From Isoetes taiwanensis (taxonomy: Eukaryota > Streptophyta > Lycopodiopsida > Isoetales > Isoetaceae), in the NCBI GenBank assembly GCA_021234155.1, contig JAJEKV010000111.1, positions 2,736,968 to 2,800,967 of the forward strand: a DNA stretch of 64,000 nucleotides, given 5' to 3'. This document shows positions 2,700 through 56,809 of this stretch, in pieces. Below the pieces are notes generated by a model that saw only the letters and a program-made list of their open reading frames with translations, was not told the DNA's origin and did not search any database. A program made the position numbers and the translations under genes. Position 1 is the first letter of the stretch, and each line of letters starts with the position of its first letter.

Positions 2700-3968
2700 T
2701 TGGAGTCTATTCGGGCATCTCTGTTCTTCGATCTATTGACTGAAGATGTATTTTCACATCTTGGCTCAGTATCATCTTCCTGACAAATGTGATCAGACTA
2801 TGATCTTTTTGGAATTCGAGATGGATTTCTGTCCATGATGGACTCCTGTATGTTCCAAACAAGGGGGCGTCACCTTGTGGAACCTGTCAAAACCACGTGC
2901 ATCAATGGGAGGGGGCGATTTTTTACCCTTTTTCGTATGTATATTAGGGGTCATAGGGGTTTTGAGATGTTCTTCTAGTTGTAAAACCATACAGAAAGGG
3001 GTCAAATTTGCCTATCAGAAATACGTATACTAGGGGTTTTTCGGCTATCCTATGCACGCAGGTGGCATATCCCTTATAAAGAAGGTGGATCCCCCGGGGT
3101 TCCAAATGGTACTTCCCGACCTCAGGTTCTCCAGGCCTGTCATGACTTGCTTATGGCTGGACATTTTGGAGTAGCCAAGACTCTTGAACTGATTAGTCGA
3201 GAGCATTGGTGGTCTGGGCTTCGCACTCTGTCGAAGCTTTTATTTGATCTTGTGATATCTACTGTCGAGCGAAGGTTCCGAGACTTAGATTCTTCATGGT
3301 CTTCTTCAGCCATTGCCTGTTCCAGATGGATCTTGGAAGAGTATTTCTGTGGACTTTATTCTAGAACTGCCACTCTCTAGGAGGCATGATGCCATCATGG
3401 TCGTTGTCAATCGTTTCTCGAAGATGGCTCATTTTATTTCCCACGACGTCACCATCACCAATGAAGAAACAACTGATCTTTTCCTTCGTGAAGTAGCCAG
3501 GCCTTATGGACTGCCCAAATCGTGGACCCTAGTTCGTCGCAGGCTTTTGAAAGCAGGTTTTGGAGTTATTGCATGTTGACAGCTCATTGACATCCATTCA
3601 TCATTCACAAAGTAATGGACAAGCGGAGTGCACTAATCAGACTCTGGAACAATATTTGAAGTGTTTTATCAGTTCTCAGCAAGATGATTGGGTCGATTAT
3701 CTTCCATTAGCTGAGTCAATACATGCTCGTAAATCGTAGTGTCGAGTCTCGACTTGAGAACTCCATGCACTTTAATCGGATCTTTAGCATCATCTTCTTC
3801 GGGCACAGAAGTGCTATCCACATTATGCCAATTTACATCATCAGGAAGCTCATGCGTTTCATGTTTGTCTGGTTTCTTCATAGGGACCTCCCTAATTCAC
3901 GTCCCCTCAACAAGCTTGACTATCGTTGCCTTGGGTCCTTACCGGATCACGACCCAGATTAGCGATGT
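2700..3968 (+). pseudogene. Ty3/gypsy integrase (relic, interrupted by a MITE)
   Basis: Pieces in shifting frames read as an integrase. HLPDKC lies near 2770 and LYVPN at 2845. After the MITE, GTSRPQVLQACHDLLMAGHFG (zinc-binding H residues) begins near 3107, and VDFILELPLSRRHDAIMVVV at about 3345 holds the first catalytic Asp. NGQAECTNQTLEQYLK near 3610 holds the catalytic Glu. The second Asp region and the CxxC of the zinc finger are damaged. The tail near 3910 (RPLNKLDYRCLG) matches the integrase C-terminal domain. Confidence 0.75.
2860..3098 (+). mobile_element. hAT-like MITE, copy 1, inside the gypsy relic
   Basis: A 239-bp insertion splits the integrase sequence. It is flanked by a perfect 8-bp duplication GTTCCAAA at 2852-2859 and 3099-3106. 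Removing one copy rejoins LYVPN with GTSRP. The ends are imperfect terminal inverted repeats: CAAGGGGGCGTCACCTT at the left, and the reverse complement of the right end reads CCCGGGGGATCCACCTT. An 8-bp duplication with a CA(A)GGG-type end is typical of hAT transposons. It has no coding capacity. A second copy lies at 30339-30574. Confidence 0.8.
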
Positions 3969-4569: not shown

Positions 4570-4960
4570 TGTGACGATCATATGGGTATTCGTACCATAT
4601 GAATATTTTACTCATATGTCCAAAAGATGGTCTTCATACAGATGCAAAAAAAGTAGTCGCACAGGGCAGGGTTAGAACTTACAACCTTCTAGCTATGAGT
4701 CACACACCTTTACTAAATACACTGCCGATGCTTGCTGAAGACATTCCTACACATCTTCTTCATATGCAGGGATGTTCCAGGAGGTTCTAGAATATTTTAG
4801 AACCTACATGCATGCGCGACAATTGACATGATCTTGCCCATTGGAGTGGCACGATCATGATCGTTGGCCTAGATATATATATATATATAGAGGCACCTCT
4901 TTCTTGTCGAATCATTCTGGTTCAACACCAGTCTTGAGCCTTGTAAGCATGTCTCTCATA
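4570..4960 (+). repeat. 3' LTR of the gypsy relic (left part)
   Basis: It begins TGTGACGATC right after the purine tract and matches 1960-2038 over its first 80 bp. It contains a TA-dinucleotide run near 4872-4890 that could serve as a TATA element. The right boundary is uncertain because the 5' copy is too short to define it. Confidence 0.55.
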
Positions 4961-6494
4961 TTCTTGTCTGCCTTCGGGTCATTGTATTCTTGTTTCTTCA
5001 CCATATATCAAATATCTTGCCGATCTTGGCGTACTTCTTCTGCATTTCTTGCGTATTTTCCTTATTTTTGCCCGAATTCATGACACGCACGTCTTTTTCT
5101 CGTAAAATAAGAGGATTCTAGAAAAAATCGCTTGAGTCCAACTTTAATTATTTGGTGCTTACATGCAATAGTGACGAACATGAGCACTCCATTTTAGATT
5201 TATCTTGAAGCTCGTTCTCCCATTTCCATGGCAGATTAATTCTCCCCTAGATCTCAGAGCTATGGTCAGGCTTTGATCATGCCCAAAAGAGGTGTCTCTC
5301 CTTTTGTTTTGTCTAGAATATTGTTGCACATGCACATTGTCCCTGCTGCCCTCTCAAACAGCTGAGTCCAGACATGTTTGCTACCTAAACATGTCAAAGA
5401 GAGCGGAGAGCACTTTTGAGAGCCGCAAGATAGAAGCAAACACATGAGCACGCACCCAAAACTCGTTCCATTTCTGCATCCCACCTCCTTTAACAAGCTC
5501 TTCATGGTCCTGCTTGGATATTCAACTCCCGAGGCACCACTTAGATGAATCAAAGGCCAAATTCACCAAGAAAGGGATCTCTAGATAGCTTTAATGATGG
5601 CGAAGATGCAACAGAGCATCAAGCTCCTCCCAACGTCGTAGCTACTCTGGTGAAAACAAACAAGTCAAGCTCCTCCCAACGCCATAGCTACTCCAGTGAA
5701 GACAAACAAGTTCTGCATAGACGACCGGACGACAAAATAATGGATGGCAATAGAGCCCTACTCACGCCGTCTAATGCCGCTCCACATTCCAATTGGGTCA
5801 TCCAAATTGCACATTCGACGGCATAAAACAGAATATACAACTAACCAGCAGAAGTGTCGTAAACAGGGTTCAAAATTAGAAATCGCCATGACAGGTAAAA
5901 ACGCCTGCTTATATTTAAGGTTACGGGAAATACACAAATTTGCATATCCTTAGAAAATTATATAAAATGACCTGAAAAAACGTCGGTAATTTTTTTTATT
6001 ATCGAAAATTTTTTAAAATGGTCGGATTTTTCAGGGTCGAACGCCCCCAATCTCGAACCCTGGCCGTAAATATCAGACACGATGGTGTGGGAGCACATGA
6101 AACTTCCGCCTCAAATCTGAAGTGCATTTTCTTAAAGCTGCGTAGGCCAGAATGCTTATCTATGTTTTTCTAGCTATAGCGACCACAATTCTACAAACAA
6201 GACGACGTGGCCAAATCAAGGCTGTTCAATGTCATGGCATTGGCAACTATTTATGCTACTGAAAAAATATCTACACAGCAAAAATAATGCCGCCAATTTA
6301 CAATGTAGCCGCCCGCAAATAAAAAACAAACGGCATACAAACCAACGGCTCAGATGCGGCGATCGGGCGGCAGCCTTATCACAAGTGGATTACCCTGACG
6401 GATAAGAGCAAGCGATTATGCCGATGTAAGATCAGAACCGTCGAGGACATCTTGTTCAAATAGACGTGCCTCCAGAGTCTCGGAGCTTTTGGCT
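4961..6494. other. Intergenic / upstream of the BTB gene
   Basis: No protein-coding homology recognised. It contains a two-copy tandem duplication of 46 bp (CAAGCTCCTCCCAACG at 5620 and 5666). The last few hundred bases should include the promoter and 5' UTR of the BTB gene, but I could not pick out a TATA box with confidence. Confidence 0.5.
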
Positions 6495-9960: not shown

Positions 9961-10570
9961 AATAATCAAGTTAACAAAATCTATACACAAACATTTCACA
10001 AATTGAGTCGAAGAATCCATGCAATTAAAATGATACATTGTTTTCTACCATAGCTGCACATGGTTCTCGATAAAACAATGGAACAATTATTTACAATAAT
10101 CACTTCATTTTTCCACCTATCACATTGAGTAATTCCCATTCAATTGCTACAGAGAAATACTTGATCCCAAAGTTCTGGTATAATAAAAAAGTTTTTCCCT
10201 TTTGAAGATCCAATTATGTTTGAATAATTACCCAATTATTGCGCGTGCACCTATTTGTCTTGATATGATCTTGTGACTTTAATAAGAGGCAAGCTAAGAC
10301 AACATGGTAAGAATTGAAAAAAATAACAGTAATAATCCAATGCAAAATTACCTTTTGCTTTAGTGTGAGCACTCCAAAATCGGGATAACCACAATCGTCG
10401 GTTGTAGCGAGGGATTGTCTACTATGATGGGTTAGCCGAGGAAGATGGATACTCAATCTTAGAATGTTGACAGAATGCCAATCTTAGAAATCAAAAGCTA
10501 GAGAGTGGTTGCCTTCTAGAGTAAGAATGCATCTTCCAGAGCACAACATAGCAATAACATATCAAGATTT
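9961..10570. other. Intergenic, no gene seen
   Basis: AT-rich, without recognisable coding, RNA or repeat features. Confidence 0.5.
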
Positions 10571-10722
10571 GAATATGTAGCAAAATAACAGGGGTTCCAG
10601 GGGGATTTGATATGGATGTAAAAAATAACAATTCTTGAAACCATAAACCATAGATCCCTAAAACAATTGAATGGCTTGTTATAAAAAAAAATATATAGAT
10701 TTGAGATAAAAAATAATCACAT

Positions 10723-10793
10723 TAGCTCACTGGATATATTGGTTAAAGTAGTCTTATTAGGACATGGAGTTATTTTGGTAGAGGTTCGAGCCC
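10723..10793 (+). promoter_or_regulatory. Candidate RNA polymerase III internal promoter (A and B boxes)
   Basis: TAGCTCACTGG at 10723-10733 fits the tRNA A-box consensus and GGTTCGAGCCC at 10783-10793 fits the B-box consensus. They are 60 bp apart, a little longer than in a plain tRNA gene. The intervening sequence does not fold as an obvious tRNA, so this looks like a SINE-type promoter rather than a tRNA gene. Confidence 0.5.
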
Positions 10794-11260
10794 CCTTATT
10801 TCATATTCTAAAATCTTAGGCAAAGCCGTATAGAGGTTCGATATTCCCTCAAAGCCTTAGGCGAAAGCGTATTTCATATTTCAAAATCATAAGCCTCAAT
10901 CATAAATGACTATAAATGAGGTGTTCAGGAGGCCCCAACATGTCTGATGCGGATTGGTAGGATCGAAGCCGAATCCATGGACGAGTCGCGGTAGTCCTCA
11001 GTGCACCTCGTTTAGAATATGTAGCAAAATAACAGGGGTTCCAGGGGGATTTGGTATGGATGTAAAAAATAGCAATTCTTGAAACCATAAACCATATATC
11101 CCTAAAACAATTGAATGGCTTGTTATAAAAAAAAATATAGATTTGAGATAAAAAATAATCATATTAGCTCACTGGATATATTGGTTAAAGTAGCCTTATT
11201 AGAACATGGAGTTATTTTGGTAGAGGTTCGAGCCCCCATATTTCATATTCTAAAATCTTA

Positions 11261-11281
11261 GGAAGGAAGGAAGGAAGGAAG
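11261..11281. repeat. (GGAA)n microsatellite
   Basis: Five GGAA units sit within the second copy of the 440-bp repeat and are absent from the first copy. Confidence 0.9.
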
Positions 11282-28560: not shown

Positions 28561-29361
28561 AAAAAAAAAAACAACAACAAAAATAGAACCCTGTATATTG
28601 GGATTCAAAATTAGTAATCAAAATAACATCCCTTTGGAGGACCTCTTGTTGGGCAGTTTGACATGATTACATTTTATCACTCTTCTTGAGTGATTCTAGT
28701 GAAGATATTGATGACCTAATAGTAATGATTTACCTCACAACTGATGCTTTAAGTATTTTCCCATCTCATTTCCTCTTATCATCACCATTTCAACTTCAAA
28801 CAACTTGCTAAAACGGCTTCGTACTATTTGATGGCTTTAGTCTGTCAGTGTTGTTGCAGTTCTTTTATACATGTTCATCTCTTGCAAGTACTTGTATTTA
28901 ATCCTTGCAACTTTGTGAAGTAACAAAAGCTATAGCAATTTCTATTGCTGACTCCTTCGTACATGTCTATTTAGTTGGCAAATATGCTTTGATTATTGTA
29001 CGACTCAATCATGTCTTATTCATTTTACTATTATAACTTGTAAAATGGTTTTTAGGAATGCAACCACCTTCTTTACTTGTCTTTCTAGGAGATAAGGAGG
29101 TGTTTTATCCGCAAAAGAATTGATACCTACTATGGTTGGATTCGTATGGTACAGTCAAAGAATTTGAATCGCAAGTATTGCTTTGCATCTTTAACGTTAA
29201 GACAGTGCTTTGTTCGAGTTGCAACTAATAAGCAAAAGTCCTTAGCTCAACTCTTCAATTGGGCAATGACTTGCATCCGTTGCCTAATATACATGTGATA
29301 TATCTAAACATATATAAACCAGTTTTTTTTTTTTGTCTGCCTACAAAAAAATTGTTATTTT
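28561..29361. other. Intergenic, no gene seen
   Basis: AT-rich, with an A run at about 28560-28573. No coding or RNA feature recognised. Confidence 0.5.
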
Positions 29362-30230
29362 CTACATATTCTAAATGAGGTGCACCTTGGACTACCACAA
29401 TCTTCGGATTCGTCGATCCTACGACTCAGATCGTATGTTGAGTCCTCTAGGCACCTCTCGTTTCGTTTATAGTCATTTATGATTGGAGGCGCCTATGATT
29501 TTGAAATATGAAATACGATTTTGCCTAAGGTTTTGAGGGGAATATTGAACCTCTATACGGCTTTGCCCAAGATTTTAGAATATGAAGTACGGGGGCTCGA
29601 ACCTCTACCAATATAATTCAATGTATAATATGACTACTTTAACCAACCAGTGAGTTAATGCGATTTTTTTTTATTTTGAATCTACGTTTTATTTTATTAC
29701 AACCCATTCAATTGTTTTAGGGATGTATGGTCTATGGTTTCAGAAATTATTATTTTTACATCCATATCAAATCCCCCTGGAACCCCTGTTATTTTGCTAC
29801 ATATTCTAAATGAGGTGCACGCTAGACTACCACAGTCGTCGGATTCGTAAATCCTACGACCCACATCGTATGTTGGCGCCTATCGTTTCGTTTATAGTCA
29901 TGAGGCACCTATGATTTTGAAATATATAATACAATTTCGCCTAAGGTTTTGAGGGAACATCGAACATCTAAATGTCTTTGCCTAAGATTTTAGAATATAA
30001 AATACGGGGGCTCGAACCTCTACCAAAATAATTCAATGTCCTAATAAGACTACTTTAACCAATGTACCCAGTGAGCTAATGAGATTATTTTTTATCTTTA
30101 ATCTATGTTTTTTTTATAACAACCCATTCAATTGTTTTAGGGATATATGGTCTATGGTTTCAGAAATTGTTATTTTTACATCCATATCAAATCCCCCTGA
30201 ACCCCCTATTATTTTCCTACATATTCTCCC
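29362..30230 (-). repeat. Inverted dimer of the ~440-bp repeat
   Basis: Reverse complement of the family at 10571-11764. Unit boundaries CTACATATTCTAAATGAGG fall at 29362 and 29797, and a third, truncated start is at 30217, giving 435- and 420-bp periods. The same A-box and B-box sequences are present in minus orientation. The two loci are therefore inverted relative to each other about 19 kb apart. Confidence 0.8.
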
Positions 30231-33578: not shown

Positions 33579-33583
33579 GATAC

Positions 33584-35169
33584 TGTGACGCTCCCAGAAC
33601 GTATACGACGCCCGGCCGTATACATACGGGGACTTTCCCCTCCCATGACAACCATTTCGCCATGAGCAGGGCCCTCCGTCTAACTCGGGCCATCTATGGA
33701 AATATGCTCGAGTGAAGGACACAGAGGGGTCATTCGGCCCACGCCTTCAATGGGGCTCCTATGTCGCGGAAGCGTGAATACAAGGTCAGCATACAGCATA
33801 ATCATATCATAAATACCACCACGAAGGGTGGCACGTCCATCCAACTGCTAATAACAGAGAAGATACATTTAATACTAGGAAAACACCCCAAACCCATGGT
33901 TCTACCCCGACTCAGACTCCAGTGAGGATCGACTGACGGCTAGGTCTCAAGAGATCAGCAGACCGAATCTTGGCATGGCGTTGGCTGGCATAGAACATCG
34001 GCTAGTGTTGTCCACTCCATCCGCCCCTCACATTGCACACTGCGGATGAGTCGAATCATGCTATGGCACCACTATAGCCTTCCGGAGACGCAGAATCAAG
34101 GTATCACCCTTCAAGCCTACTCCAGGGTTCATGAAGCCCTGGTCCGATGAGGCAGGTCAGGGAAGTGTCCCCTTCCAGGATCATAGCGGTTCCATGGGTG
34201 AGCTAGAGAATACGTGCCGCATCGGTGACCCAGCATCCATGCGAGCTTACTCACTCTAAATCTACTCAAAGTACGGGGGTGCCCCATGCGGGTCACACCT
34301 CCGCACCTGGGGAGTGTCGGACCCATACCCGCCCCCTCGTGGCCCGGCTATTAGGCCTAGCCCACTGTAGGAGTCCTAGGAGCCTTGTATGTTCGTGCAA
34401 GACCCCACCCCCACTTCACCACTGCGTCCCTTCTCTGGTGCTAAGCAATTCCATAGCATCCACGATTTGATGGTCTCTTGTGCACAGGCCGCTTCTAATG
34501 GGAGTAGTACAGGGCTCTATCTAGGAGCATACTACAATACATGGGCTCAGAGGTCTCTACCCCCCCCCCTCAATCCCTGCTTTAAGGAAGCTAACAGAGA
34601 TACTTTCATAGATTCATCCATCCTTACTTAACAAACATAATCCCTAATTGAAATACAATCCCAAATATCAAAGAAGGGTTAATCCTAACAAAGATAACCA
34701 GAGAAGCCTAACTGAGGCACTACCCTAGAAGCTCAAGCTAGACTACCACTAACCCGAGTTTCTGCTAGAACCGTTATCATGGGCACTTCCATACTTTAGC
34801 AACCTGGGTGTTCAGCAACAGCTTGGGCGAGTTCAGCAACAGCTTTGGCGAGTTCAGCAACAGCTTGGGCGCTCACAGCTCCTCCTCCTGGCTCGATTTA
34901 GGGGTGAAATGGGGTAATGATCCACTTTGATGGCCCAAGTTAGCATTCCCATGCTGGCCAATCGAGTTTGGCCAAGTGGCACCTTCCTAAGTAATTCATT
35001 AACTTAATTAAACCAATTAGAGGTTAATTCCTTAATTATAGGTAATTAACCTTTAATAATCCCTTTTAGGTCAACCCCCTAGGTTAAAATACCCCATGGT
35101 GGCGTATCTTTACTGGGTGACGTGTCAGTATATTTATACGTATACCGTATAAATACTTGGAACGTCACA
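33584..35169 (-). repeat. 3' LTR (left copy)
   Basis: 1586 bp. Compared with the right copy it has three rather than two units of the 21-bp TTCAGCAACAGCTTGGGCGAG repeat near 34810. It also lacks a ~23-bp segment (ATTAATTTAGCATAGCTAAATTA) that the right copy has near 45720. Confidence 0.95.
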
Positions 35170-35183
35170 TTCTCCCCTCCTTA
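35170..35183 (-). other. Polypurine tract
   Basis: On the minus strand AAGGAGGGGAGAA lies immediately upstream of the 3' LTR, the expected primer for plus-strand synthesis. Confidence 0.85.
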
Positions 35184-35663
35184 GAAATAATGTTGTCCTC
35201 AGCATTAGGGTTAGTTACAACTATAAGAAACCATACCTAAAAGAAGGAAGGTAACTCCTTATTTCTGAAGGTAATAACATCAAAGTTTAAAACATATAAT
35301 AGTTTAAGCACCAAGGTGCATTTCACATACTTATGATAACAAGGTTTAAGGATCAAAGTCCGATATGAAGATCATAGTGACAAAAAAAATAACACATGTA
35401 GACAAAATAAAACTGGAGAAGTCGGGCCATCAGCAACCCTCTATACATGGGCAGGTCACGTACTGCTCACTGGCCTGCACATGTCAATACATCAGTATAT
35501 ATAGATAAGATAAATAGGTTGTGGTTGAAGGGACCACCCCCTGTAAGAAATAAAAAGAAAAACCTATCTACAAGGGAACCTATCATGCCTATGGTTCGCA
35601 ATTCATTGCGGCGTAAGGAATGGTCAAGTTCCCATTATAGCCGAGATGAACGCGGCCTATCAA
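35170..35663 (-). other. 3' untranslated region of the LTR element
   Basis: The interval between the pol stop and the polypurine tract/3' LTR. No coding homology. Confidence 0.6.
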
Positions 35664-38600
35664 CTACATGCTTTCCAAGCAATTCGCGGTCATGCCCACA
35701 TTGACAATACACCACGTCCTAGAGAACACGAAGGTGATCTCATCATCGGTAACTATTGTTAACCACGATGCATCTACCCCTCTACTGCATGATTCTCGGC
35801 GAATCAAGCCTTCAAGCTTACCGCCGGGAGCGGGGTTGATAGCATCGTTGATGGTGCGGCCCTGAGATTCCCGCATGAAGTCCGGATAGTGCTTCTCAAG
35901 GTCTATCTTCATCACCCACGTAGCATCCTCAACTGGCAAGTGTTTCCACTTAACCAAGTATTGCAACATTTGACTCCTTCTGGTCTGCTTATAGGCTCGA
36001 TCAAGAAGAGCTTCAGGCACTATATCTAGATGCTCTTCTGTCATTTCAAGAAGGGTGGGTGTATCCAAGATCTCCTCTGGATCTGGGGTGTGTTGTTTCA
36101 GAAGACCCACGTGAAAGACCTTGTGGATCTTCAAGCGGGGTGGCAAATCCAAGCGATATACCTGTTCTCCAACACGTTCAATGATTTTGAACGGCCCAGC
36201 CCATCTGGGTGCCAGCTTCTTGCAGTTGCCAATCTTAAGCTTCGCTTGTTTAACCTTAATCTTGAGCCAAACTGATTCGCCCACCTGGAAGACTCGTGGG
36301 GTTCTGTGCTTATCCGCGACACTCTTCTGACGACTGCGTGCAGCCAACAAGTAACCACGAACTTCCTCAACCAAAGCTTGCATTTCCAAGAGGAGTTGTT
36401 GAGAAACCTCCACCTTAGAAACGGGATTATGCCATGTGTCTGGAGTAAGGCACTGGTAACCATAATTTATCATGAAGGGAGACATTCTGGAAGACTCCTG
36501 TTTCATGCTATTATAGGCAAATTCAACCAAATAAATATAGTCAGCCCATTGTGATTGCTTACTCCACACATAACTTCGTAGCATATCTTCTATAATGCGA
36601 TTGGTACGCTCTGTCTGACCATCCTGAGGATGATATGCCGTACTCATAGCAAGCTTGGTTTGGATGGTGGCAAAGAAATCTTTCCAGAACGCACTTACGA
36701 ATTTGGGATCCCTGTCGGATACGATAACTCGTGGCATCCCATGCAATCTGAAGATCTCCTTTGTAAACAGCAGAGCGGTATCAAAGGCTGTATCCGTGGT
36801 ACGACATGGCAAGAAATGAGCCATTTTCGACAATTTGTCGACCACTACCATCAATGCATCATATCCACGAAGAGTACGTGGAAGGCCCACAATCAAATCC
36901 ATGGTTATGACTTCCCATTTGGCATTGGGCACATCTAGAGGTTGCAACTCTCCTGGGATCCTTAGTTGCTCAGCCTTGGTTTGCTGACATACCTGACACT
37001 GCTTAATATACCTGGCAATGTCCTTCTTCATAGAAGGCCAAAAATAACTGGAGCGGATTTTAAAGTAGGTTTTCATGAAACCTGCATGTCCAGCTATAGG
37101 GCTGTTGTGTGTGTCATGGAGAATGAGGTTACGCACTCCTGAAGTCTCGGGTACACACAACTTATCTTTGTGATATAACAAATTGCCCTCTTTCTTATAC
37201 GAACGGAAAGCTTCACGTTCTTTGTCTGTGCGTGCTTCCTTAGCCAAACTATCCCACACATCACGGAACTCTGGATCCGTGGCCAAGGTCTGCTCTATCT
37301 GTTTCCCGAACTCACTGGTGAGTGTGGAGATGGCGTTACAATAGGTTCGGGTTACCAAGGGATGGCGTGATAACGCATCCGCAACCACATTGTGTTTCCC
37401 AGGCTTATACATAATCTCAAAATCATACTCCTCGAGAAACTCCATCCATCTCCTTTGACGGAGGTTGAGATTCGGCTGGGTTGATAGATAACGGAGACTC
37501 TGATGATCTGTATCAAACTGAAATCTTATACCAAGAAGGTAGTGTCTCCATATACGCAGAGCGCGGACAACAGCCAACAACTCCTGATCATGGGTAGGGT
37601 ATCGCTGTTCAGTCTCATTCATTTTCTTTGAATCATAGGCAATAACCCTCCCTTCCTGCATTAGGACTGCCCCGGTAGCAATCTTACTGGCATCCGTTGC
37701 TACTAGTTTATCCTTTTCGGGGTCCGACAATGTGAGGACTGGTGCCGATGTTAAAGCATCCTTAAGCTTCTGAAAACTTCCCTGGACTTTTGCTTTCCAA
37801 TGCTCAATCCAATCCTTCACTTTCTCATGTTTTATAAGATCGGTAAGAGGTGCTGCAATCTTTGCGAAGTCCTTAACAAACTTACGGTAATATCCTGCCA
37901 ATCCCAAGAAGCTTCGGACCTCTGAAACATTACCTGGAATGGGCCAATCCTTGACTGCCTCTATCTTTGCTGGATCTGTAGCAATTCCTTCAGCGGAAAT
38001 GACATGGCCTAAATAGTCCACTTTGGGGGTGGCAAACTTGCACTTAGAAAACTTGGCAAAGAGCTGGTGACGTCTTAGTTTTTGTAGGGCCAAGCGAAGA
38101 TGTTTCTCATGCTCCTCCAAGGTCTAACTATAGATGAGAATGTCATCAAATAATATAACAACAAAATCATCCAAGTATTGACAGAAGACATCATTCATTA
38201 ACCGCATAAAAGTTGCGAGGGCATTAGTTAATCCAAAAGGCATAACGATAAACTCATAATGCCCGTATCGAGTGCGAAAAGCAGACTTATGGTGGATGTC
38301 CTCCTCTTTGATTCTGATTTGGTGATATTCGGAGCGTAAATCAATCTTTGAGAAGTACTTGGCCCCTTGCAACTGGTCCATAAGATCCTCTGCTCTAGGC
38401 AAAGCATAGCGATTCTTGATCGTATGCTTGTTGAGCTGCCGATAATCAATACACATCCTGAGGGAGCCATCTTTCTTCTTAACAAAAAGGATAGGAGCGC
38501 CAAAAGGCGAAACACTAGGTCGAATGAAGCCTAGGTTTAGTAACTCCAGAAGTTGCTTTTTAAGCTCTGCTAACTCAGGGGGACTCATACGGTACGGGGC

Positions 38601-39060
38601 CTTACTGGTAGGCTTAGTACCCGGTTCTAGAGCTATCTCACATTCTACTCCTCTGAATGGAGGTAGTTTCTGGATCTCGTCTGGAAAGAGATCGCTAAAT
38701 TATCTGAGAAGATCAGCAATGCCCTTTGGCAAGGCATCAACTACTTGATTTTGCTTAGCATCTGACTCAATGGAGGCAAGTCTGATGACACAAAGTAGCG
38801 TATCCTTGCGTATAGCCTTATTTAACTGCCTGATGGACATAGACTGCATAATGGGGTTTAAGGGATCACCTTTTATAGTTACTCGGGTTCCATTAGTTGC
38901 GTTGAAGGTAACCTCCGTTTTTCATGATCTATATTGGCCTTTTGCGGATGCCAAGAATTCCATGCCCACAATCGGATCATATTTGCCAATATCCATTAAC
39001 TTCGGCACCCAATGCAACCGGCACACTGGCGGTACATTTAAAGGTTAATCGGCTGACCAT
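35664..39060 (-). pseudogene. Pol polyprotein: RT, RNase H, integrase, chromodomain (two in-frame stops)
   Basis: From 38720 leftward the frame reads [23 protein letters not shown], then the RT blocks [19 protein letters not shown] and [11 protein letters not shown] (catalytic DD). RNase H shows [15 protein letters not shown] and [11 protein letters not shown]. Integrase shows the zinc-binding [13 protein letters not shown]...CQVCQQTK and the core [23 protein letters not shown] and [10 protein letters not shown] (D, D, E). The tail [16 protein letters not shown] is a chromodomain. In-frame stops at 38124-38126 (after ILIYS) and 38700-38702 interrupt it. The left 818-aa piece is fully open. 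Upstream of 39060 the protease is too decayed to define. Confidence 0.93.
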
Positions 39061-39256
39061 GAGTATGTCGACTTTACCAGCTGGCTAAAGTGGCGGGTTT
39101 GGTCGGGACCTCAAAGTCTCAAGCTGCAATACGGGCCATTCTAGGAGAAGCAAAATTATGTGTACTTCCGTATCCATAAGAATTTATGAAAGGCTTCTTG
39201 TCTACTTGACCTATAGTGGAAATACTTGGCCGGTGACTTTTCGGCATTGCCGGTTT

Positions 39257-40555
39257 CTATGGCTGCAAGGATATGGAACGCACCGTGAATGTACTCGGGA
39301 GCCTCCTCCTCGGCGGTGGTGTAGACTCGAGATCGTCCCAATCGAATTCGGCCATGGCCGGTGGGCGATCTGTGTGACATAAGGGCAATTCTACATGAAG
39401 TGCGGACGAGCATACACCGTAACATGCCTTATCTCTGCGGGCTGCTCTCGAGCCTCTTTGGGAATAGACGTAAGAGGTTCGAACTTCCCACCGACATTGT
39501 TTGGGTTTGTCGAGCATGTTGAAGGTGACTTTCTTTTCTGGCCGGTAGGAAGAGTTCTGCTGAGAGGGCCCAGGACTTGGTGAGCGGGCCTTGTAAGGTG
39601 TGTACGGATGGGGCTGAGAATAAGGGGCAGGACGCTGGTACTGGTTTCTTGGTGTGTCCTCTTCCAGGCTCAATGCCTTAACCTTGAGCCTCTGCAACTA
39701 ATTTCGGGTCTATGGCCTTAACCATTCGTTTAATTGATGGGGCCAACCCTTCAATATAGCCCTCCCCGCCCTCTTTTCATTCATACCTGGTACATACAGC
39801 CTCAAGCGCATGAATTCATCTGTGTAGGCCTGAACTGACATACCCTTCTACTCTAACCTATAAAAAGTCTGAATCTGCTGGCATTTGTGCGCACGGGGCA
39901 TGTAATGCGACTTAAAAGCTTTGGCAAACTTTTTGAACTTGCATCTGCTTCTGTCCAGATGCTTGGCTCTAGCATAGCCCTTCCACCAAATATGAGCGGC
40001 TCCGGTAAGGTTTGTGGTGGCAACTTTTCCTGTATCTTTCTCCGTCATGCCATAGGATTTCCCAAACTCCTTCATCTCGTCCAACCAGGATTCTGCATTC
40101 AACCCGCCTCTAGATTTCCCATCAAACTGGGCCAATTTCCTGTTTTTCCATATACTGGTTATGGCCGTATCAACCGTCTTACGGTACTCCTTGTCCCGGC
40201 GCTTTGCATGGTCACCAGATGACATAGACGACTCCGAGGACAGAGAAATGGCTGATGGTGAGGATGTGGCGCTATCCGCAGACGAGCTTCGACGACGTTT
40301 GGAATGGTGCCTCCTTTGTGCAGGTGCAGGGCCTGGTTCTGGTGCAGGTGGCTGCTATGGTGGTGGGCTTGGCGGTAATGGAGGTAACTCCGGTCCGTCC
40401 TCTTGCATATGGTGCGGTGGGTTGGCATTTAACACATAAGCCTGGAGCTCTACTAACTGCCGCTTCATCAACATGAGTTCTTGCTCAGGTGTTAGTCTGC
40501 TAGCATTCGAGAGTGTCTGCCATGAGACATTACGTGCACCGTCTATATTGACCAT
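39257..40555 (-). pseudogene. Gag-like protein (frames broken)
   Basis: The frame at 40225-39848 holds a retrotransposon gag core: RKLAQFDGKSRGGLNAESWL followed by VATTNLTGAAHIWWKGY. Upstream, at 40555-40355, lies LTPEQELMLMKRQLVELQAYV, a coiled-coil-like segment, followed by a proline-rich linker. Downstream, at 39697-39257, is a Pro/Ser/Arg-rich tail with a Cys/His cluster that could be a decayed zinc knuckle. The three pieces lie in different frames, so it cannot be translated whole. Confidence 0.75.
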
Positions 40556-40830
40556 AAGAAGGTATAAGGAGAATCATTGTGGTAACAAGTGTCACAAAGA
40601 AGATCATCTTAAGTAGTGCTAGGAAATAATAATAAAGACGGTAGACGAGAATAAAAGATCTTTATTGTAAATTCAAGTAGCAATTACATTGGAGATATAT
40701 CGTTAACAAAAGTTTAAGGTCATACAGTACAGAAGTAGTGATTACACACATATTTAGCCATAAGGCTGTACATTAGACAACTTCTAGTCAACACATACTT
40801 AGTCATAAAAGCAAACTGAAGAAATCAGAC

Positions 40831-41337
40831 CTAGGGCTGCGCAAAAGGGTACAGGATGGAGTAGCGAACGCTCTCCCGTACAGCCCTGACTACCTTGTAG
40901 CGAGCCCATGCTTGGATGATAACGTGCTGGTAGTCTAACATGGGGCTAATGATAAGGAGATTGAAGAGGCTTCTTAGCGCATAGAAGATCTGCCATAAGT
41001 GATCGTTTGCGTCGACAAAAGCTTTGTGCTTGGTCATATCCCAGTAATCCCAGGTACGACGAAGAGTCTGTTGTAGATGCTCAAAGGCACGTTCTCGGAG
41101 AATATTGACTATTTCCAGGCCTTTAGTTGAATCATAGGGTTCTCCCTGTTCCACGGGCTCCTCCGGTACGTAATCATCATCCCGATCCGGATACTCCCCA
41201 TAGCGTTGACCGTAGTCTTGGTCGGGAGGTCCTTGATCGTCCCTTCGTATGTCGTTGGTGATTCTTTCCTCGATTTCTTCGAGTTCATCGTCTGCAAGAC
41301 GGCAAGAATGAATACACAATATCGAACGATTTCGCAT
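40831..41337 (-). CDS. Retroelement pre-gag ORF, unknown function (168 aa)
   Basis: I do not recognise this protein. It has an acidic N-terminal half (ELEEIEERITNDIRRDDQGP) and a more hydrophobic, basic C-terminus ending near VRESVRYSILYPFAQP. It lies between gag and the histone-like ORF on the element's coding strand. It may be an exon or fragment of a larger pre-gag protein. Confidence 0.4.
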   Translation of the reverse strand: MRNRSILCIHSCRLADDELEEIEERITNDIRRDDQGPPDQDYGQRYGEYPDRDDDYVPEEPVEQGEPYDSTKGLEIVNILRERAFEHLQQTLRRTWDYWDMTKHKAFVDANDHLWQIFYALRSLFNLLIISPMLDYQHVIIQAWARYKVVRAVRESVRYSILYPFAQP

Positions 41338-41520
41338 ACTACAACTCTAAAAGAGAGATAACCAAGTATCGTAGGGAACAAGGTAATTGTGCTCAATGCT
41401 ACAAGAACCATTAGACATAAGAAAGTAGCACATATATTATATGATGGCTTAAAAGGAAAATTTGCCAATACAAGATTACAGCTATACGCGATACAAAAAT
41501 TTATAATTGTAAAACGATAT

Positions 41521-41976
41521 TTAAGAACTGGGTCCCTCATCTTCCTCCATAGGCTGAGGAGGTGGTGGTGGCGGCCGATGACGTAGCAGAGCAACTCCTG
41601 GATCAACAGTAACGGCCGCGCGAGAAGCGACTTCCGGAGGGTAGGCGACTGCTAGCGGAGCCGCCGCAAGGAGCTTCATACCCATCCAGGGTGCTATGTC
41701 CTGTCCTAAGGCTGCCAGGGCGAGATCCCGCCGCACCAACACGTAAGTAAGTGTGTGGTAGGATAGATTCTTGTGCCTCGCAAGAGTAGACAAGGCACGG
41801 AGACTCCACCATGAGGCTTCTGCTTCTGGGCCTAAATCACGTGCCACGAAGAAAACCTGTCCCTGCCTAAAAGTTGATAAGAAGAAGCGGGTGAGGGGAC
41901 TTCCAGACACTTTCCCATGGGCGGTAACTGAAGTGTCTACCTCCTTCTCTAGGTTCTTAGGAACCTCTTCCTCCAT
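41521..41976 (-). CDS. Retroelement pre-gag ORF, unknown function (151 aa)
   Basis: Unrecognised family. It reads RDLGPEAEASWWSLRALS then YHTLTYVLVRRDLALAALG and ends in a poly-proline stretch before MEEDEGPSS. The ORF at 52043-52273, inside the older relative, has a similar pattern (WEAVTLLIALTGF..., SPLAVVAAIAPE), which suggests conservation within this element family. Confidence 0.4.
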   Translation of the reverse strand: MEEEVPKNLEKEVDTSVTAHGKVSGSPLTRFFLSTFRQGQVFFVARDLGPEAEASWWSLRALSTLARHKNLSYHTLTYVLVRRDLALAALGQDIAPWMGMKLLAAAPLAVAYPPEVASRAAVTVDPGVALLRHRPPPPPPQPMEEDEGPSS

Positions 41977-42042
41977 ACGTTCTTCTTTCTCCTCCCTATA
42001 GTGGGCAGAATTATCATAAAGATCCTCGCCTTCCTCCTCTGA

Positions 42043-42504
42043 CTAAGAGGGAAGCTCGAGCATAAGTATGTTTGGGACTGAAGGTCCCACATCCGTGAAG
42101 GCTTCTGGAGGAGGTTGGTATGGAGGGTCTGGAAGCACGAGATCTCTAAGTCGGAGGAGTGTCTCAGCCGGCTCAATAGTCTGCTGGTGGAACTGGAGTA
42201 CCTGTTGTACCTCAGGAGGGAGGTCCACGGATGAAAAATCAATGAAGTCATCCATGCAATATTCGGCCAGTTCATAGAGAACCTGTGCTTTCTCCTTCCC
42301 TTTGACCCCGGCTACTACATGGTATGTCCACATGATGTCATCCAACAGAAGGAACTCCTGCCCCTCGTGGTATATAACTGGAACGACGTCCAACCCAGCT
42401 AAACGTCCACTTCGCTTGCGGCGTGGTGGCATCTCCTCTGCTATCTGCTTCCACCGGACGAAATCATCCATGTCAATCTGCTCGTCCTCTTCCTCATCTG
42501 ACAA
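42043..42504 (-). CDS. Retroelement pre-gag ORF, acidic start (153 aa)
   Basis: Unrecognised. It begins MSDEEEDEQIDMDDFVRWKQ, then a basic patch (PPRRKRSGRLAGLD), then YHEGQEFLLLDDIMWTYHV. It starts within about 25 bp of the end of the histone H3-like segment but in another frame, so it may be the continuation of that protein after a frameshift or a splice. Confidence 0.4.
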   Translation of the reverse strand: MSDEEEDEQIDMDDFVRWKQIAEEMPPRRKRSGRLAGLDVVPVIYHEGQEFLLLDDIMWTYHVVAGVKGKEKAQVLYELAEYCMDDFIDFSSVDLPPEVQQVLQFHQQTIEPAETLLRLRDLVLPDPPYQPPPEAFTDVGPSVPNILMLELPS

Positions 42505-42527
42505 TGCTAGGGAATTGCAAAAGCCTA

Positions 42528-43100
42528 GAAACGAAGGTCGGTCTTATATTCTTGGGCGATTTCCCGAACCAACCGCTGAAAAGGCACCTTCCTTATTAAG
42601 GGCTCCGTGGTCTTCTAATATTTCCTGATCTCCCGTAAAGCTACGGTGCCCGGTCGAAAACGGTGGGGTTTCCTCACAGGCTTCGGGGGCGGCCCCTTCT
42701 TCGGGGGAACCGTCTTAGCTCCAGTCACGGGATGGGGCTGTGAAGCATCCACCCGCTCCTGCCTCCGGGTCGAGCTTGTGTGCTTCCCAATACCGCCGAC
42801 AGTCTTCAGCTTTTCCCTATACTGGCTGCCAGATTTATGGGCTACAGCTTTCCTTCGCCTCTTGATGGGTGGCTTATCTGCCTGATTAGGTCCCTGTTGG
42901 TCTTGGGGTCCCTTATCGTGCTGCTCCTTTTGTCGATGCTCCTGCTGAGCCCTTTCCTGTTCTTTCTGGAATTGGCGGGCTCGTTCCATATCAGCTTCCA
43001 TCTGGGCAAACCTTCGGTTCGTAACCCTTCGAATCAGCTCAGCTTCATAGCGGTCGGATCGCCTGGCCATGTCGATCTGGACGGTCGTCAGGTAATCCAA
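42528..43100 (-). pseudogene. Retroelement ORF with coiled coil and histone H3-like segment
   Basis: The frame (ATG at 43100) starts with a charged coiled coil (QFQKEQERAQQEHRQKEQ), continues with a basic linker (IKRRRKAVAHKSGSQYREK), and then reads KPHRFRPGTVALREIRKY. After one TAG codon (42615-42617) it continues KTTEPLIRKV and PFQRLVREIAQEYKTDLRF. That is the alpha-N helix, alpha-1 helix and loop 1 of histone H3, close to canonical plant H3. A second TAG (42525-42527) stands where H3 has Gln; AFAIP follows and then the similarity stops. The H3 tail (ARTKQTARKS) and the C-terminal half of the histone fold are absent. The upstream frame through 43330 (EVPPYEWHEASQTFTWGE) joins this one without a break. 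The role is unknown. Confidence 0.85.
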
Positions 43101-43338
43101 ACTGATGTTTGGGATCTCTCCCCAGGTAAAGGTTTGTGAGGCTTCATGCCACTCATAGGGAGGAACCTCAAAAGCTTGGCAATTGATAATGGCCCACCCA
43201 TGGCCTAAGTACCTGTATTCCCGAGCCCGGGTTTCGGTGTCAGCCCTCTCGACTTCCCGACTGTCATCTTCTCGGGCCAGCGTCCGAATACGGGCGGACT
43301 CCGTCCGGATGGCTTCCTCCTCGGAGTGCTCCTCACAT

Positions 43339-43611
43339 TCAGGGGGGATAAAACTTGATCAACACCATAACCAGGTCAGGTTGCTCGACCATGGTGTACG
43401 GCAACTGTTGGAGGTTCAGCTTGATGAGAAATTGTTCAGAATAGTGAAATATGGGGTAGAGGATCCTAAGGTCGCTAGCAAATCGCTGCACCAACTCATT
43501 CAGGGGGATGTCGATCATATCACTATCAGTGGCCATGTACCGTGCGATTAAGGTGTATATTTCATGTATGTTGAGGCTAGTAGGGTCCACGGTAGTCTTG
43601 GTGTTGGCCAT
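43339..43611 (-). pseudogene. First pre-gag ORF, frameshifted from the histone-like ORF
   Basis: The 90-aa frame begins MANTKTTVDPTSLNIHEIYT and ends IKFYPP at a run of six C (minus strand). Shifting frame at that run continues PECEEHSEEEAIRTESARIR and joins the histone-like ORF. The natural product therefore probably starts here and runs about 360 residues. I do not recognise a domain in this part. Confidence 0.55.
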
Positions 43612-44240
43612 AGGTGTGCGCTGGCGATCAGGGAGGCGGTAGGGAAGGCGCTGGGGAGTAGGGATGGTCTGGGGAAAACAAGGCGCAAAGCGGGCGGCTA
43701 TGGCGGCTAGGGCGGCTATGGCAGACGCCGGAGAGAAACAAGGAAAGAACCCGTTTAACTTTTGAATTTCAAAATTTTCTTGTTAAAAACTTTTTATTTT
43801 TATTTTTTTTTAAATACGGCAGAAATTTATTATACGCGTAAATGTACGCGCAAATATACGAAGCGGCGCTGACCCGATTATACGCGATTATCTCCGGACT
43901 CTGGGACGTCCAAACCCTGTCAGCGCCGCCGTTGGGTTTGACCCCTTTGCTCGTTCCTCTTGTGCTAATTAACGACCCGTTTGGGGTATTTCGGGTACGC
44001 CAAATCTGTTGGAGCCATTTTCGCCTTCATCCGAGCTACCCATACACAGTTATGGCCCATCGAAACTTGGGTCCTCCAGTCACCCTAAACCTCTTAAAAC
44101 TTACAATTTATTACATCAACCTAGCACAGACCCAAACATCGAAAGGTTAAACAGTTCAACTAGCTTAAACTCCCACCTAACTACCGAACTAACGAGTTAG
44201 GGGTTTGGGTCAGTGCTATGATTTCGGGCTACAAAAATCA
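43612..44240 (-). other. 5' leader of the LTR element
   Basis: The interval between the primer binding site and the first pre-gag ORF. No coding homology; a T run lies near 43797-43812. Confidence 0.6.
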
Positions 44241-44254
44241 CGGCTCTGATACCA
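44241..44254 (-). other. Primer binding site, tRNA-iMet
   Basis: The minus strand reads TGGTATCAGAGCCG one base inside the 5' LTR, complementary to the 3' end of plant initiator methionine tRNA. Confidence 0.93.
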
Positions 44255-44255
44255 C

Positions 44256-45851
44256 TGTGACGCTCCCAGAACGTATACGACGCCCAGCCGTATACATACG
44301 GGGACTTTCCCCTCCCATGACAACCATCTCGCCATGAGCAGGGCCCTCCGTCTAACTCGGGCCATCTATGGAAAGATGCTCGAGTGAAGGACACAGAGGG
44401 GTCATTCGGCCCACGCCTTCAATGGGGCTCCTATGTCGCGGAAGCGTGAATACAAGGTCAGCATACAGCATGATCATATCATAAATACCACCACGAAGGG
44501 TGGCACATCCATCCAACTGCTAATAACAGAGAAGATACATTTAATACTAGGAAAACACCCCAAACCCATGGTTCTACCCCGGCTCAGACTCCAGTGAGGA
44601 TCGACTGACAGCTAGGTCTCAAGAGATCAGCAGACCGAATCTTGGCATGGCGTTGGCTGGCATAGAACATCGGCTATGGTTGTCCACTCCATCCGCCCCT
44701 CCTGTGCACACTTTGCAGATGAGTCGAATCATGCTATGGCACCACTATAGCCTTCCGGAGACGCAGAATCAAGGTATCACCCTTCAAGCCTACTCCAGGG
44801 TTCATGAAGCCCTGGTCCGATGAGGCAGGTCAGGGAAGTGTCCCCTTCCAAGATCACAGCGGTTCCATGGGTGAGCTAGAGAATACGTGCCGCATCAGCG
44901 ACCCCCCCATCCATACCCGACTTACTCACCCTAAATCTACTCAAAGTACAGGGTGCCTTATACGGGTCACACCTCTGCACCCAGGGAGTGTCGGACCCAT
45001 ACCCGCCCCCCCCACGTGATCGGCCATCGGGGCCTAGCCCACCTGTAGGAGTCCCATGAGCCTTGTATGTTCGTGCAAGACCCCACCCCCACTTCACCAC
45101 TTCGTCCCTTCTCTGGTGCTAAGCAATTCCATAACATCCACGACTCGGTGGTCTCTTGTGAACAGGCCGCTTCTAATGGGAATAGGACAGGGCTCTATCT
45201 AGGAGCATACTACAATACATGGGCTCATAGGTCTCTAACCCCCCCCCCTTTAATCCCCCTTTAAGGAAGCTAACAGAGATACTTTCATAGATTCATCCAT
45301 CCTTACTTAACAAACATAATCCCTAATTGAAATACAATCCCAAATATCAAAGAAGGGTTAATCCTAACAAAGATAACCAGAGAAGCCTAACTGAGGCACT
45401 ACCCTAGAAGCTCAAGCTAGACTACCACTAACCCGAGTTTCTGCTAGAACCGTTATCATGGGGCACTTCCATACTTCAGCAACCTGGGTGTTCAGCAACA
45501 GCTTGGGCGAGTTCAGCAACAGCTTGGGCGCTCATAGCTCCTCCTCCTGGCTCGATTTAGGGGTGAAATGGGGTAATGATCCACTTTGATGGCCCAAGTT
45601 AGCATTCCCATGCTGGCCAATCGAGTTTGGCCAAGTGGCACCTTCCTAAGTAATTAATTAACTTAATTAAACCAATTAGAGGTTAATTCCTTAATTATAG
45701 GTAATTAACCTTTAATAATTAATTTAGCATAGCTAAATTAATCCCTTTTAGGTCAACCCCCTAGGTTAAAATACCCCATGGTGGCGTATCTTTACTGGGT
45801 GACGTGTCAGTATATTTATACATATACCGTATAAATACTTGGAACGTCACA
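44256..45851 (-). repeat. 5' LTR (right copy)
   Basis: 1596 bp, near-identical to 33584-35169 apart from indels. In element orientation it starts TGTGACGTTCC and has TATAAATATA within about 40 bp of the start, next to TGACACGTCA. If that TATA is used, U3 is very short and most of the LTR is transcribed. Confidence 0.95.
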
Positions 45852-55334: not shown

Positions 55335-56809
55335 TGTGATACTTCCCCTACTTGTAGGATGCGCCCATCGAAAAGATAGAGGGAATTTCCCTCGCCGACT
55401 CCTCCTCATTGTCGAAAGGGCTCCCATCTAACTCAAATCACTCGGGATGGCCAGGTGACCAAGCAGAGGATATGGAGGTGTTATTCGGCTGATTCCTCTT
55501 CTAAACTACATATAGTGCAAAAGCACATTAAAACATTAGCACGTGGCAAACAATACAAATAACATAATATACCACCTTGAAAGGTGGTCCAGTTCATCCG
55601 CGTACAATCCATAGAATATGCAGATGCATCAAGTAAGGAGACTCATATCCAGGCTCGGACTCCAAGGGGTTTGACTATGGGGCAAGACCTCTAGACACTA
55701 GAAGACAGAACCATGGAAATGGATTTGGCTGGCATAGTATATCTCCTAGGGTTTTCCATTCCATCCACCCCTCCTATGCATAGCCTACTTGGAGACATGA
55801 TTCTAAAGGACTACTCCAGGTCGTATCCCCGATCCGATGTGGCAGGAATGAGACATAGCCCATCCAGATGGTAACATGCCACTACAAGGGAGCTAGAGGA
55901 CCATGATACATCACATCCTTACCTGACTTATCCCCACTGGGACGAAGCATCATCCAGGAGATGTCAGATCCATATTCAAACCAAACGCGGTGGTAGATTA
56001 TTAGGTTTAACACATAGCATGGAGCTCCAGTAGATAATACAGGCCAAGGCTTCAACCGCAACAGTCAAGCCTAGTCTCATTACTCGTCACCCTCAGCCAG
56101 ATGGACTCTTATGCACATGTCTCATTAATTGGGAATTAGGAAGTTTTAACTAGGAGCATCTCTCCTATAGCTTCTAGACAACAATCCATAAAACATCCAT
56201 AAGTTGAGATTAATACTCTTATCTTAACTTAATCACATACATCTAAGTTAGAGTTCATGAATTAGGGTTCCTGATACATAATTGGGCCCTTGTGTTCTAG
56301 GAAGATTCTAACGAAGATACAAGGTGCGACACCACTTGGAACTCCTTCCAAGTGGTTTACCTACTTAACAACTTGAAATACTTATTCCTTGGATACTCCA
56401 TTATCCTGTTGGGTTCTCGATCACTCATGAGTTGTGCTTGTTATAATTCTTGGATCAGTTGCAATTGCTGTTGCAAGCTTGACATTGCTTTTGAAGATGC
56501 TTCCTTGATTTGAGGTCGCCAATGGGGTTCAAGCAACATTTGGATTCAAAAATAAGGGGTGGCCCTAGGTTTTAGGCCTATTAGTAGGTTAGGATTTAGG
56601 GCAAAGCTAGCATTGGTCCAATTGGCACCAATGGGACAGTCCCACATGGCAAAGGTGATGTTCCTTACCTTTCTCGCATGGGCTAATTATTTAGGTTGCC
56701 TCCATGTTAGTCATCTTACCTCTGCTATGCTCTTGTACATGTCGATTATACGGTGACGTGACCATAAAATATACGTATTTCTAAATGTATATTATGCGGG
56801 AATGTCACA
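55335..56809 (-). repeat. Diverged LTR related to the 12-kb element
   Basis: It starts TGTGATACTTCCCC and ends AATGTCACA. Shared landmarks in the same order include GGGACTTTCCCC / GGGAATTTCCCTC, CTCCGTCTAACTC / CTCCCATCTAACTC and GTCATTCGGC / GTTATTCGGC. The right edge keeps the TGACGTG and TATA-like part of the promoter. It is 1475 bp, similar to the 1.59-kb LTRs, and is the 5' LTR of a minus-oriented relic. Confidence 0.75.

Follow-up and report, generated by a model that had tools for sequence, protein, structure and literature searches.

A histone H3 core in the first open reading frame of a chromodomain LTR retrotransposon family of the quillwort Isoetes taiwanensis

Introduction

Mobile elements that multiply H3-like sequences are known from fungi. 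hAT DNA transposons with H3-like genes have been described in Pyrenophora tritici-repentis, where 26 very similar, recently expanded H3-like copies were counted and transcripts were seen (PMC3538342), and in Pseudocercospora fijiensis and its kin, with 784 copies in P. fijiensis, about 90% of them truncated and inactivated by RIP (PMC6710886), as reported in the available excerpts of the two papers. Among plant retroelements, orchid Ty3/Gypsy elements of ~25 kb carry an ORF for an AlkB m6A demethylase, and no histone is among the domains named in the available excerpt (PMC9289625). CpBV-H4, an H4 of a bracovirus (wasp polydnavirus), joins the nucleosomes of the insect host, where its N-terminal tail brings about changes in expression (PMC5423620, excerpt). 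Giant viruses such as Melbournevirus and Medusavirus, which are DNA viruses, have several core histone genes in their genomes, as far as excerpted sources go.

Here we describe a family of chromodomain LTR retrotransposons of Isoetes taiwanensis, with thousands of candidate copies, which almost certainly encodes a full H3 core in its first ORF, under strong purifying selection. Like the fungal hAT transposons, it multiplies an H3-like sequence through a genome; unlike these DNA transposons, whose H3 appears from the excerpts to be a recent or decayed passenger, the quillwort element is an LTR retrotransposon with the H3 fused in frame to an element-specific part and kept under long-term purifying selection. 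Like the orchid elements, as excerpted, it has an additional ORF whose host-derived domain persists in several subfamilies; in the orchids this domain is an RNA demethylase. The likeness to CpBV-H4 lies in a parasite-encoded core histone, although the nucleosome role is experimental for CpBV-H4 and predicted for the quillwort element, and the histone, the parasite and the host all differ. Whereas giant viruses encode several core histones, the quillwort element has one H3 fused to an element-specific part. Its gag-pol layout, chromodomain at the integrase end and iMet-type primer site are those generally known from chromoviruses; unlike them, it has three additional ORFs upstream of gag, and H3 forms the end of the first.

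No LTR retrotransposon carrying a histone was found in the literature among the matches listed, which were mostly open-access, with few subscription journals or preprints, in agreement with the preliminary description of this locus, which knew of no chromovirus with an H3 domain. Histones are not mentioned in the main text of two Isoetes genome papers.

Results

The retrotransposon in the window

The window, by which we mean the whole stretch of 64,000 nucleotides that was analysed, contains a minus-strand LTR retrotransposon at 33582-45851, with its bounds taken from the LTR pair and the target duplication and its pol from domain calls. The features are listed in the direction of transcription.

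33582..45851, minus strand: whole LTR retrotransposon copy, Ty3/gypsy type with chromodomain (LTR pair, target duplication, pol domains)
44256..45851, minus strand: 5' LTR, TGTGACG...CGTCACA, 1596 bp, with a flanking GATAC duplication (plus strand)
44243..44254, minus strand: primer binding site TGGTATCAGAGC
42513..43611, minus strand: ORF-A remnant, element-specific N-terminal part and start of H3, with one frameshift and two TAG
42513..42671, minus strand: H3 core segment, residues 37-89, cut by a deletion
42508..42513, minus strand: deletion junction, ~0.75-0.8 kb lost compared with copies L023 and L021, H3 joined to mid ORF-B
41521..42508, minus strand: remnant of ORF-B with the N-terminus deleted and an in-frame stop; no domain recognised
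40831..41291, minus strand: ORF-C, ~150 aa, acceptor-like TTGCAG in front
39257..40354, minus strand: gag, capsid and downstream part, frames broken
35664..38699, minus strand: pol, with RT, RNase H and integrase, one in-frame stop at 38124
35874..36020, minus strand: chromodomain at the integrase C-terminus (Pfam Chromo, 8.6e-8)
35170..35182, minus strand: purine tract preceding the 3' LTR
33582..35169, minus strand: 3' LTR, 1588 bp

The RT-RNase H-integrase order and the C-terminal chromodomain are those of a Ty3/gypsy chromovirus, as are the TG...CA LTRs, the target duplication, the purine tract and the primer site TGGTATCAGAGC, which we take to be of the initiator-tRNA-Met type and which follows the LTR as an exact motif in 14 of the 20 long copies considered below. 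The preliminary description had called the element fully bounded, and its LTRs, the GATAC duplication, the primer site at 44243-44254 and the chromodomain pol were all located. Between the leader and gag, the window copy holds ~3.3 kb of extra coding remnants.

Elsewhere in the window, a repeat of ~0.25-0.7 kb occurs in more than one copy at each of 10568-11262 and 29353-30227, inverted between the two places and 83-96% alike, and a short piece at 55681-55780 is ~75-77% similar to part of the LTRs of the element.

The damaged H3 of the window copy

The H3 core of the window copy starts with K37 at 42671 on the minus strand and reads KPHRFRPGTVALREIRKY, a TAG (42615-42617), ten readable residues, PFQRLVREIAQEYKTDLRF and a second TAG (42525-42527). 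Both stops are CAG in relatives, at the sites of Q55 and Q85, and both residues are Q in the aligned relatives, except for R at 55 in L024. The match to H3 first reported for this segment, 42 of the 47 readable residues, was reproduced in a recount against the host's own H3 (L004), in which 42 of 47 are identical. The H3 interval originally given, 42528..43100, stands only in part, as H3 occupies 42513-42671 and 42672-43611 is the element-specific N-terminal part, with the Met at 43611. Nor is this the single ORF that had been proposed: the two H3 halves are split by the in-frame stop, and a further frameshift lies near 43339-43358. Pfam made no H3 call on the broken ORF of the window copy by itself.

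The H3 of the window copy is partial because of a deletion of ~0.8 kb in that copy. Window positions 42513 and 42508 align to positions 4837 and 5636 of L023, ~0.8 kb apart, and compared with L021 the deletion measures ~0.75 kb; lost with it were the last ~46 H3 residues, the spacer behind them and the beginning of ORF-B. The preliminary description had the fold stop at alpha-2 and spoke of a captured partial H3. Neither statement is supported, as the deletion at 42508-42513 removed the remainder and the relatives hold a complete core with the N-terminal tail replaced.

H3-bearing copies across the genome

Among the 8705 first-look histone candidates that a Pfam PF00125 search of the 1.658 Gb assembly yielded, 150 were scored, and every one of these passed the cut-off. 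The best 15 of these 150 match from profile position 2; the eight of them that were cut out (L001-L008) have two core sequences among them and are ordinary H3 genes where fully read (L001, L004). The match of the remaining 135 begins only at profile positions 4-25, and their open frames measure 108-494 aa. We fetched 25 of these 135 non-canonical loci, 20 with long flanks and five short, and all 25 sit in this element. The H3 core is complete in 24 (20/20 long, 4/5 short), and L033 shows just its last residues because the fetched stretch begins there.

In the 20 long copies, H3 ends stop-to-stop frames of 270-494 aa located before gag, with the natural H3 stop lost in L026, where the frame continues past it. 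A start motif is recognisable in 16 of the 20, giving 400-459 aa from Met, and is absent in L013, L017, L019 and L027. The order 5' LTR, H3, ORF-B, ORF-C, gag is present in 13 of these copies, all 20 of which were selected by their H3; the other seven miss one or more of 5' LTR, ORF-B, ORF-C and gag, never H3. Thus, no LTR was detected in L010 and L017, gag is missing from L014 and L028, ORF-C from L026, ORF-C and gag from L018, and ORF-B and ORF-C from L020. L018 (1-9501) is a short copy with both LTRs, in which ORF-A with its H3 is open and ORF-B is mostly present, and is possibly a non-autonomous form that retains the cassette discussed below. In L020, gag directly follows H3 (4690-6313, plus strand).

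The H3 sample was mostly picked by H3 score, which favours good H3s. A sample independent of H3 was obtained with ORF-B as the query (7588 candidates, 91 scored, eight loci cut out); a second ORF-B type used as the query gave 7361 candidates, 91 scored, with no loci cut out. In this small sample of eight, seven of which are new (L039 is copy L021 again), H3 sequence lies upstream of ORF-B in every locus: complete in L039, L040, L043 and L044, partly lost or interrupted in L041, L045 and L046, and reduced to the last 21 residues in L042. Most of H3 is gone from the window copy and from L042, yet these insertions persist.

The H3 had been assigned to the element as a sequence in frame with element-specific sequence, and the same arrangement in other copies bears this out. 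A one-off insertion, the case that the preliminary description set against its own reading, is at odds with the presence of H3 in 20/20 long copies and 8/8 ORF-B-chosen loci. A processed H3 pseudogene nested in the element was likewise rejected: in each of the 20 long copies, H3 closes ORF-A, with ORF-B or gag downstream of it.

The ORF-A protein and its H3 core

We distinguish four H3/ORF-B types, E, N, P and R, labelled by the start of ORF-A, with R represented by one copy. In 14 aligned copies, ORF-A comprises an N-terminal part of ~300-360 residues, with a stretch of charged residues and a short basic motif that is conserved, followed by the H3 core from residue ~37 to the natural C-terminus. 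The canonical H3 tail with K4, K9 and K27, correctly noted as absent at the outset, is replaced in all 14, and position 36 is R, not K, in 12 of them. The N-terminal part has a median identity of 31% between types and found no relative in a protein collection that apparently contains no plants. ORF-A of L022 opens with MARTK, as H3 does (3665-3679), and HPATGG before the core in L015 and L022 resembles APATGG of the H3 tail; this could be chance, or ORF-A may represent an H3 whose tail took up a large insertion.

By profile, the relatives have a complete H3 core from alpha-N to alpha-C, and the window copy is truncated. Pfam H3 matches two intact relatives with E values of 4.6e-42 and 2.9e-41, and the best solved-structure relative of the L022 H3 is H3.3 (2.1e-51). 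The host residue is present in all 20 distinct element H3 sequences at 62 of the 97 core positions and never at 86, 87, 89, 105, 107 and 135. None of the 11 positions taken as the H3-H3' interface varies, compared with 35 of the 86 others (Fisher p 0.007). For the positions taken as DNA contacts, the difference is not significant (4/20 vary versus 31/77 others, p 0.12), and three of the four substitutions are by like residues. CENH3 is marked by a diverged core and a longer loop 1; this identity was rejected, as the cores are 97 residues long without insertion relative to host H3 and 85-92% identical between types, with ordinary host H3 as the reference.

Types, cassette exchange and origin

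Between types, H3 amino-acid identity is 0.854-0.915. At fourfold sites, H3 differs by 0.64-0.73 between types and 0.27-0.37 within them, and ORF-B by 0.68-0.79 and 0.18-0.25, respectively. No type split is seen in the capsid, which differs by 0.25-0.33 both within and between types (10 sequences), or in ORF-C (0.42-0.66, 15 sequences). H3 and ORF-B look like a cassette that has been swapped between elements with a common gag backbone, the capsid sample being small. The window copy is a mosaic: in a comparison with six copies, P-type L026/L027 come closest to it in LTR/leader and gag-pol (86-90%), and N-type L023 in ORF-A/ORF-B (74-76%). Recombination between H3/ORF-B and the backbone would be the simplest reading.

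In an unrooted protein tree of 27 distinct cores, a branch with support 100/98 separates the 20 element H3s from all other cores, which are host H3 and the sequences taken as Arabidopsis, human and yeast H3. A single capture of H3 is the simplest reading of this topology. The donor looks partly H3.3-like because the E and R types have H87 and L90, which we take to be plant H3.3 marks.

Selection and age

Calculated on stop-free frames only, in samples whose choice by H3 score and open frame favours good H3s, the H3 dN/dS within types is 0.033 at a median dS of 0.58 (24 pairs). Over rising dS bins, it is 0.084, 0.041, 0.027 and 0.034 (27 sequences; the bins take in 113 of 351 pairs, and the rest fall outside, presumably saturated). 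On the same footing, dN/dS is 0.025-0.028 for the capsid (7 sequences), 0.035-0.105 for ORF-C (15), 0.056-0.153 for the C-terminal part of ORF-B (20) and 0.065-0.18 for the middle part of ORF-A (17). The H3 values lie close to those of the capsid. Within types, the N-terminal part of ORF-A has a dN/dS of ~0.11 (20 usable of 24 pairs). Sampling bias alone cannot yield an H3 dN of 0.02-0.06 at dS of 0.4-1.8.

The LTR-LTR distance of the window copy is K2P 0.044, and the distances in L025, L026 and L018 are 0.021 (436 aligned bases only), 0.027 and 0.038; L021 and L014 have no 3' LTR within the fetched stretch. The distances of 0.021-0.044 in four copies indicate that H3-bearing elements moved fairly recently.

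ORF-B, ORF-C and the signals between ORFs

ORF-C of L021 is a predicted three-helix bundle. Compared with H2A, H2B and H4 in hhalign, ORF-B and ORF-C reach probabilities of at most 0.5%, in a test where the element H3 itself reaches just 2.4-3.3%.

The motif TTAGGGTTT, which we liken to a telo-box, precedes the ORF-B start in nine of the 12 copies scanned, in all four types (L010, L011, L015, L016, L022, L023, L024, L026 and L028); the A-B spacer of L025 has AGGGTTT, and those of L014 and L021 have none. TATA-like and AATAAA-like motifs occur in some A-B spacers and, together with TTAGGGTTT, suggest that ORF-B may have its own promoter. In many copies, ORF-C is preceded by a pyrimidine-rich stretch ending mostly in TTGCAG/ACGA or TTGCAG/AAGA (window 41292-41297), and gag by one ending mostly in ATATAG/ACGG. 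The conserved ORF-C and gag frames have no ATG at the start, and the sites before them look like 3' splice sites of the same phase.

Discussion

The element probably uses its conserved H3 to act on plant chromatin. We propose nucleosome deposition because the presumed four-helix interface, the core and the C-terminus are kept and the tail is replaced. ORF-A would be translated, its H3 would pair with host H4, as the intact core suggests, and host H3-H4 chaperones would deposit the protein in nucleosomes. In H3, the tail lysines K4, K9, K14, K18, K23 and K27 carry silencing marks; the variant nucleosomes would lack these lysines and show the element's own domain instead, and, with the tail replaced, could not bear the usual tail marks. 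The likeliest benefit, speculatively, would be the shielding of the element or of its target chromatin from H3K9/K27-type silencing, and element proteins might also be held at chromatin by tethering. On this nucleosome mechanism we are evenly divided. The best explanation as a whole, and a somewhat probable one judging from the sequences, is a selected, tail-replaced H3 core that makes variant nucleosomes.

We advance a fuller version tentatively. The tail-replaced H3 might enter host nucleosomes, block silencing marks and, jointly with the integrase chromodomain, direct or tether integration, which would make it the first nucleosome component known to be encoded by a retroelement. The H3/ORF-B types, at least four and deeply diverged, would then resemble compatibility or evasion types that are swapped on a shared gag backbone.

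An unlikely alternative, although one of appreciable weight, is that the H3 core offers host histone chaperones or importins a handle, without stable nucleosomes, by which the ORF-A protein with a gag/integrase complex would be carried to the nucleus or to replicating chromatin. If chaperones serve only as carriers, the surfaces for H4 and chaperones would be conserved just as much, and the long N-terminal part could act as an adaptor. However, a pure carrier would not need the H3-H3' tetramer interface, which is invariant at the positions taken for it; 16 of the 20 presumed DNA contacts are also invariant, a count not significant alone.

ORF-A could also pack or coat the element's own RNA or cDNA in the particle, like a viral histone. 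A basic linker is retained, as is most of the face presumed to bind DNA, and giant-virus histones organise viral DNA, as stated in excerpted sources. We consider this distinctly unlikely, as H3 by itself is not known to wrap DNA, and a weak profile test of ORF-B and ORF-C turned up no H4, H2A or H2B partner. A tail-less H3 that poisons or dilutes host H3, loosening chromatin generally during a transposition burst, would draw on the same sequence evidence as variant nucleosomes, including the missing tail lysines, but a poison has no need of the selected N-terminal part (dN/dS ~0.11), and we rate it very unlikely. That a single transduction brought in a host H3 which has simply been carried along since is hardly credible: plant LTR elements are known to transduce genes (PMC7264820, excerpt) and some copies, the window copy included, have decayed, but the H3 is under selection, in frame in four types and with dN/dS of 0.03-0.08 despite fourfold sites that are 64-73% different between types.

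In the annotation of the I. taiwanensis genome, any repeat that matched plant proteins in BLASTx was dropped from the repeat library, according to the available excerpt (PMC8566536). With such a filter, H3-bearing elements were possibly lost from the published repeat count.

Histone marks placed on the tail of H3 keep retroelements in check. If the variant-nucleosome reading is true, a selected tail-less H3 in an abundant element would target the mark-bearing protein itself, and the quillwort family would provide a test case for escape from chromatin silencing.
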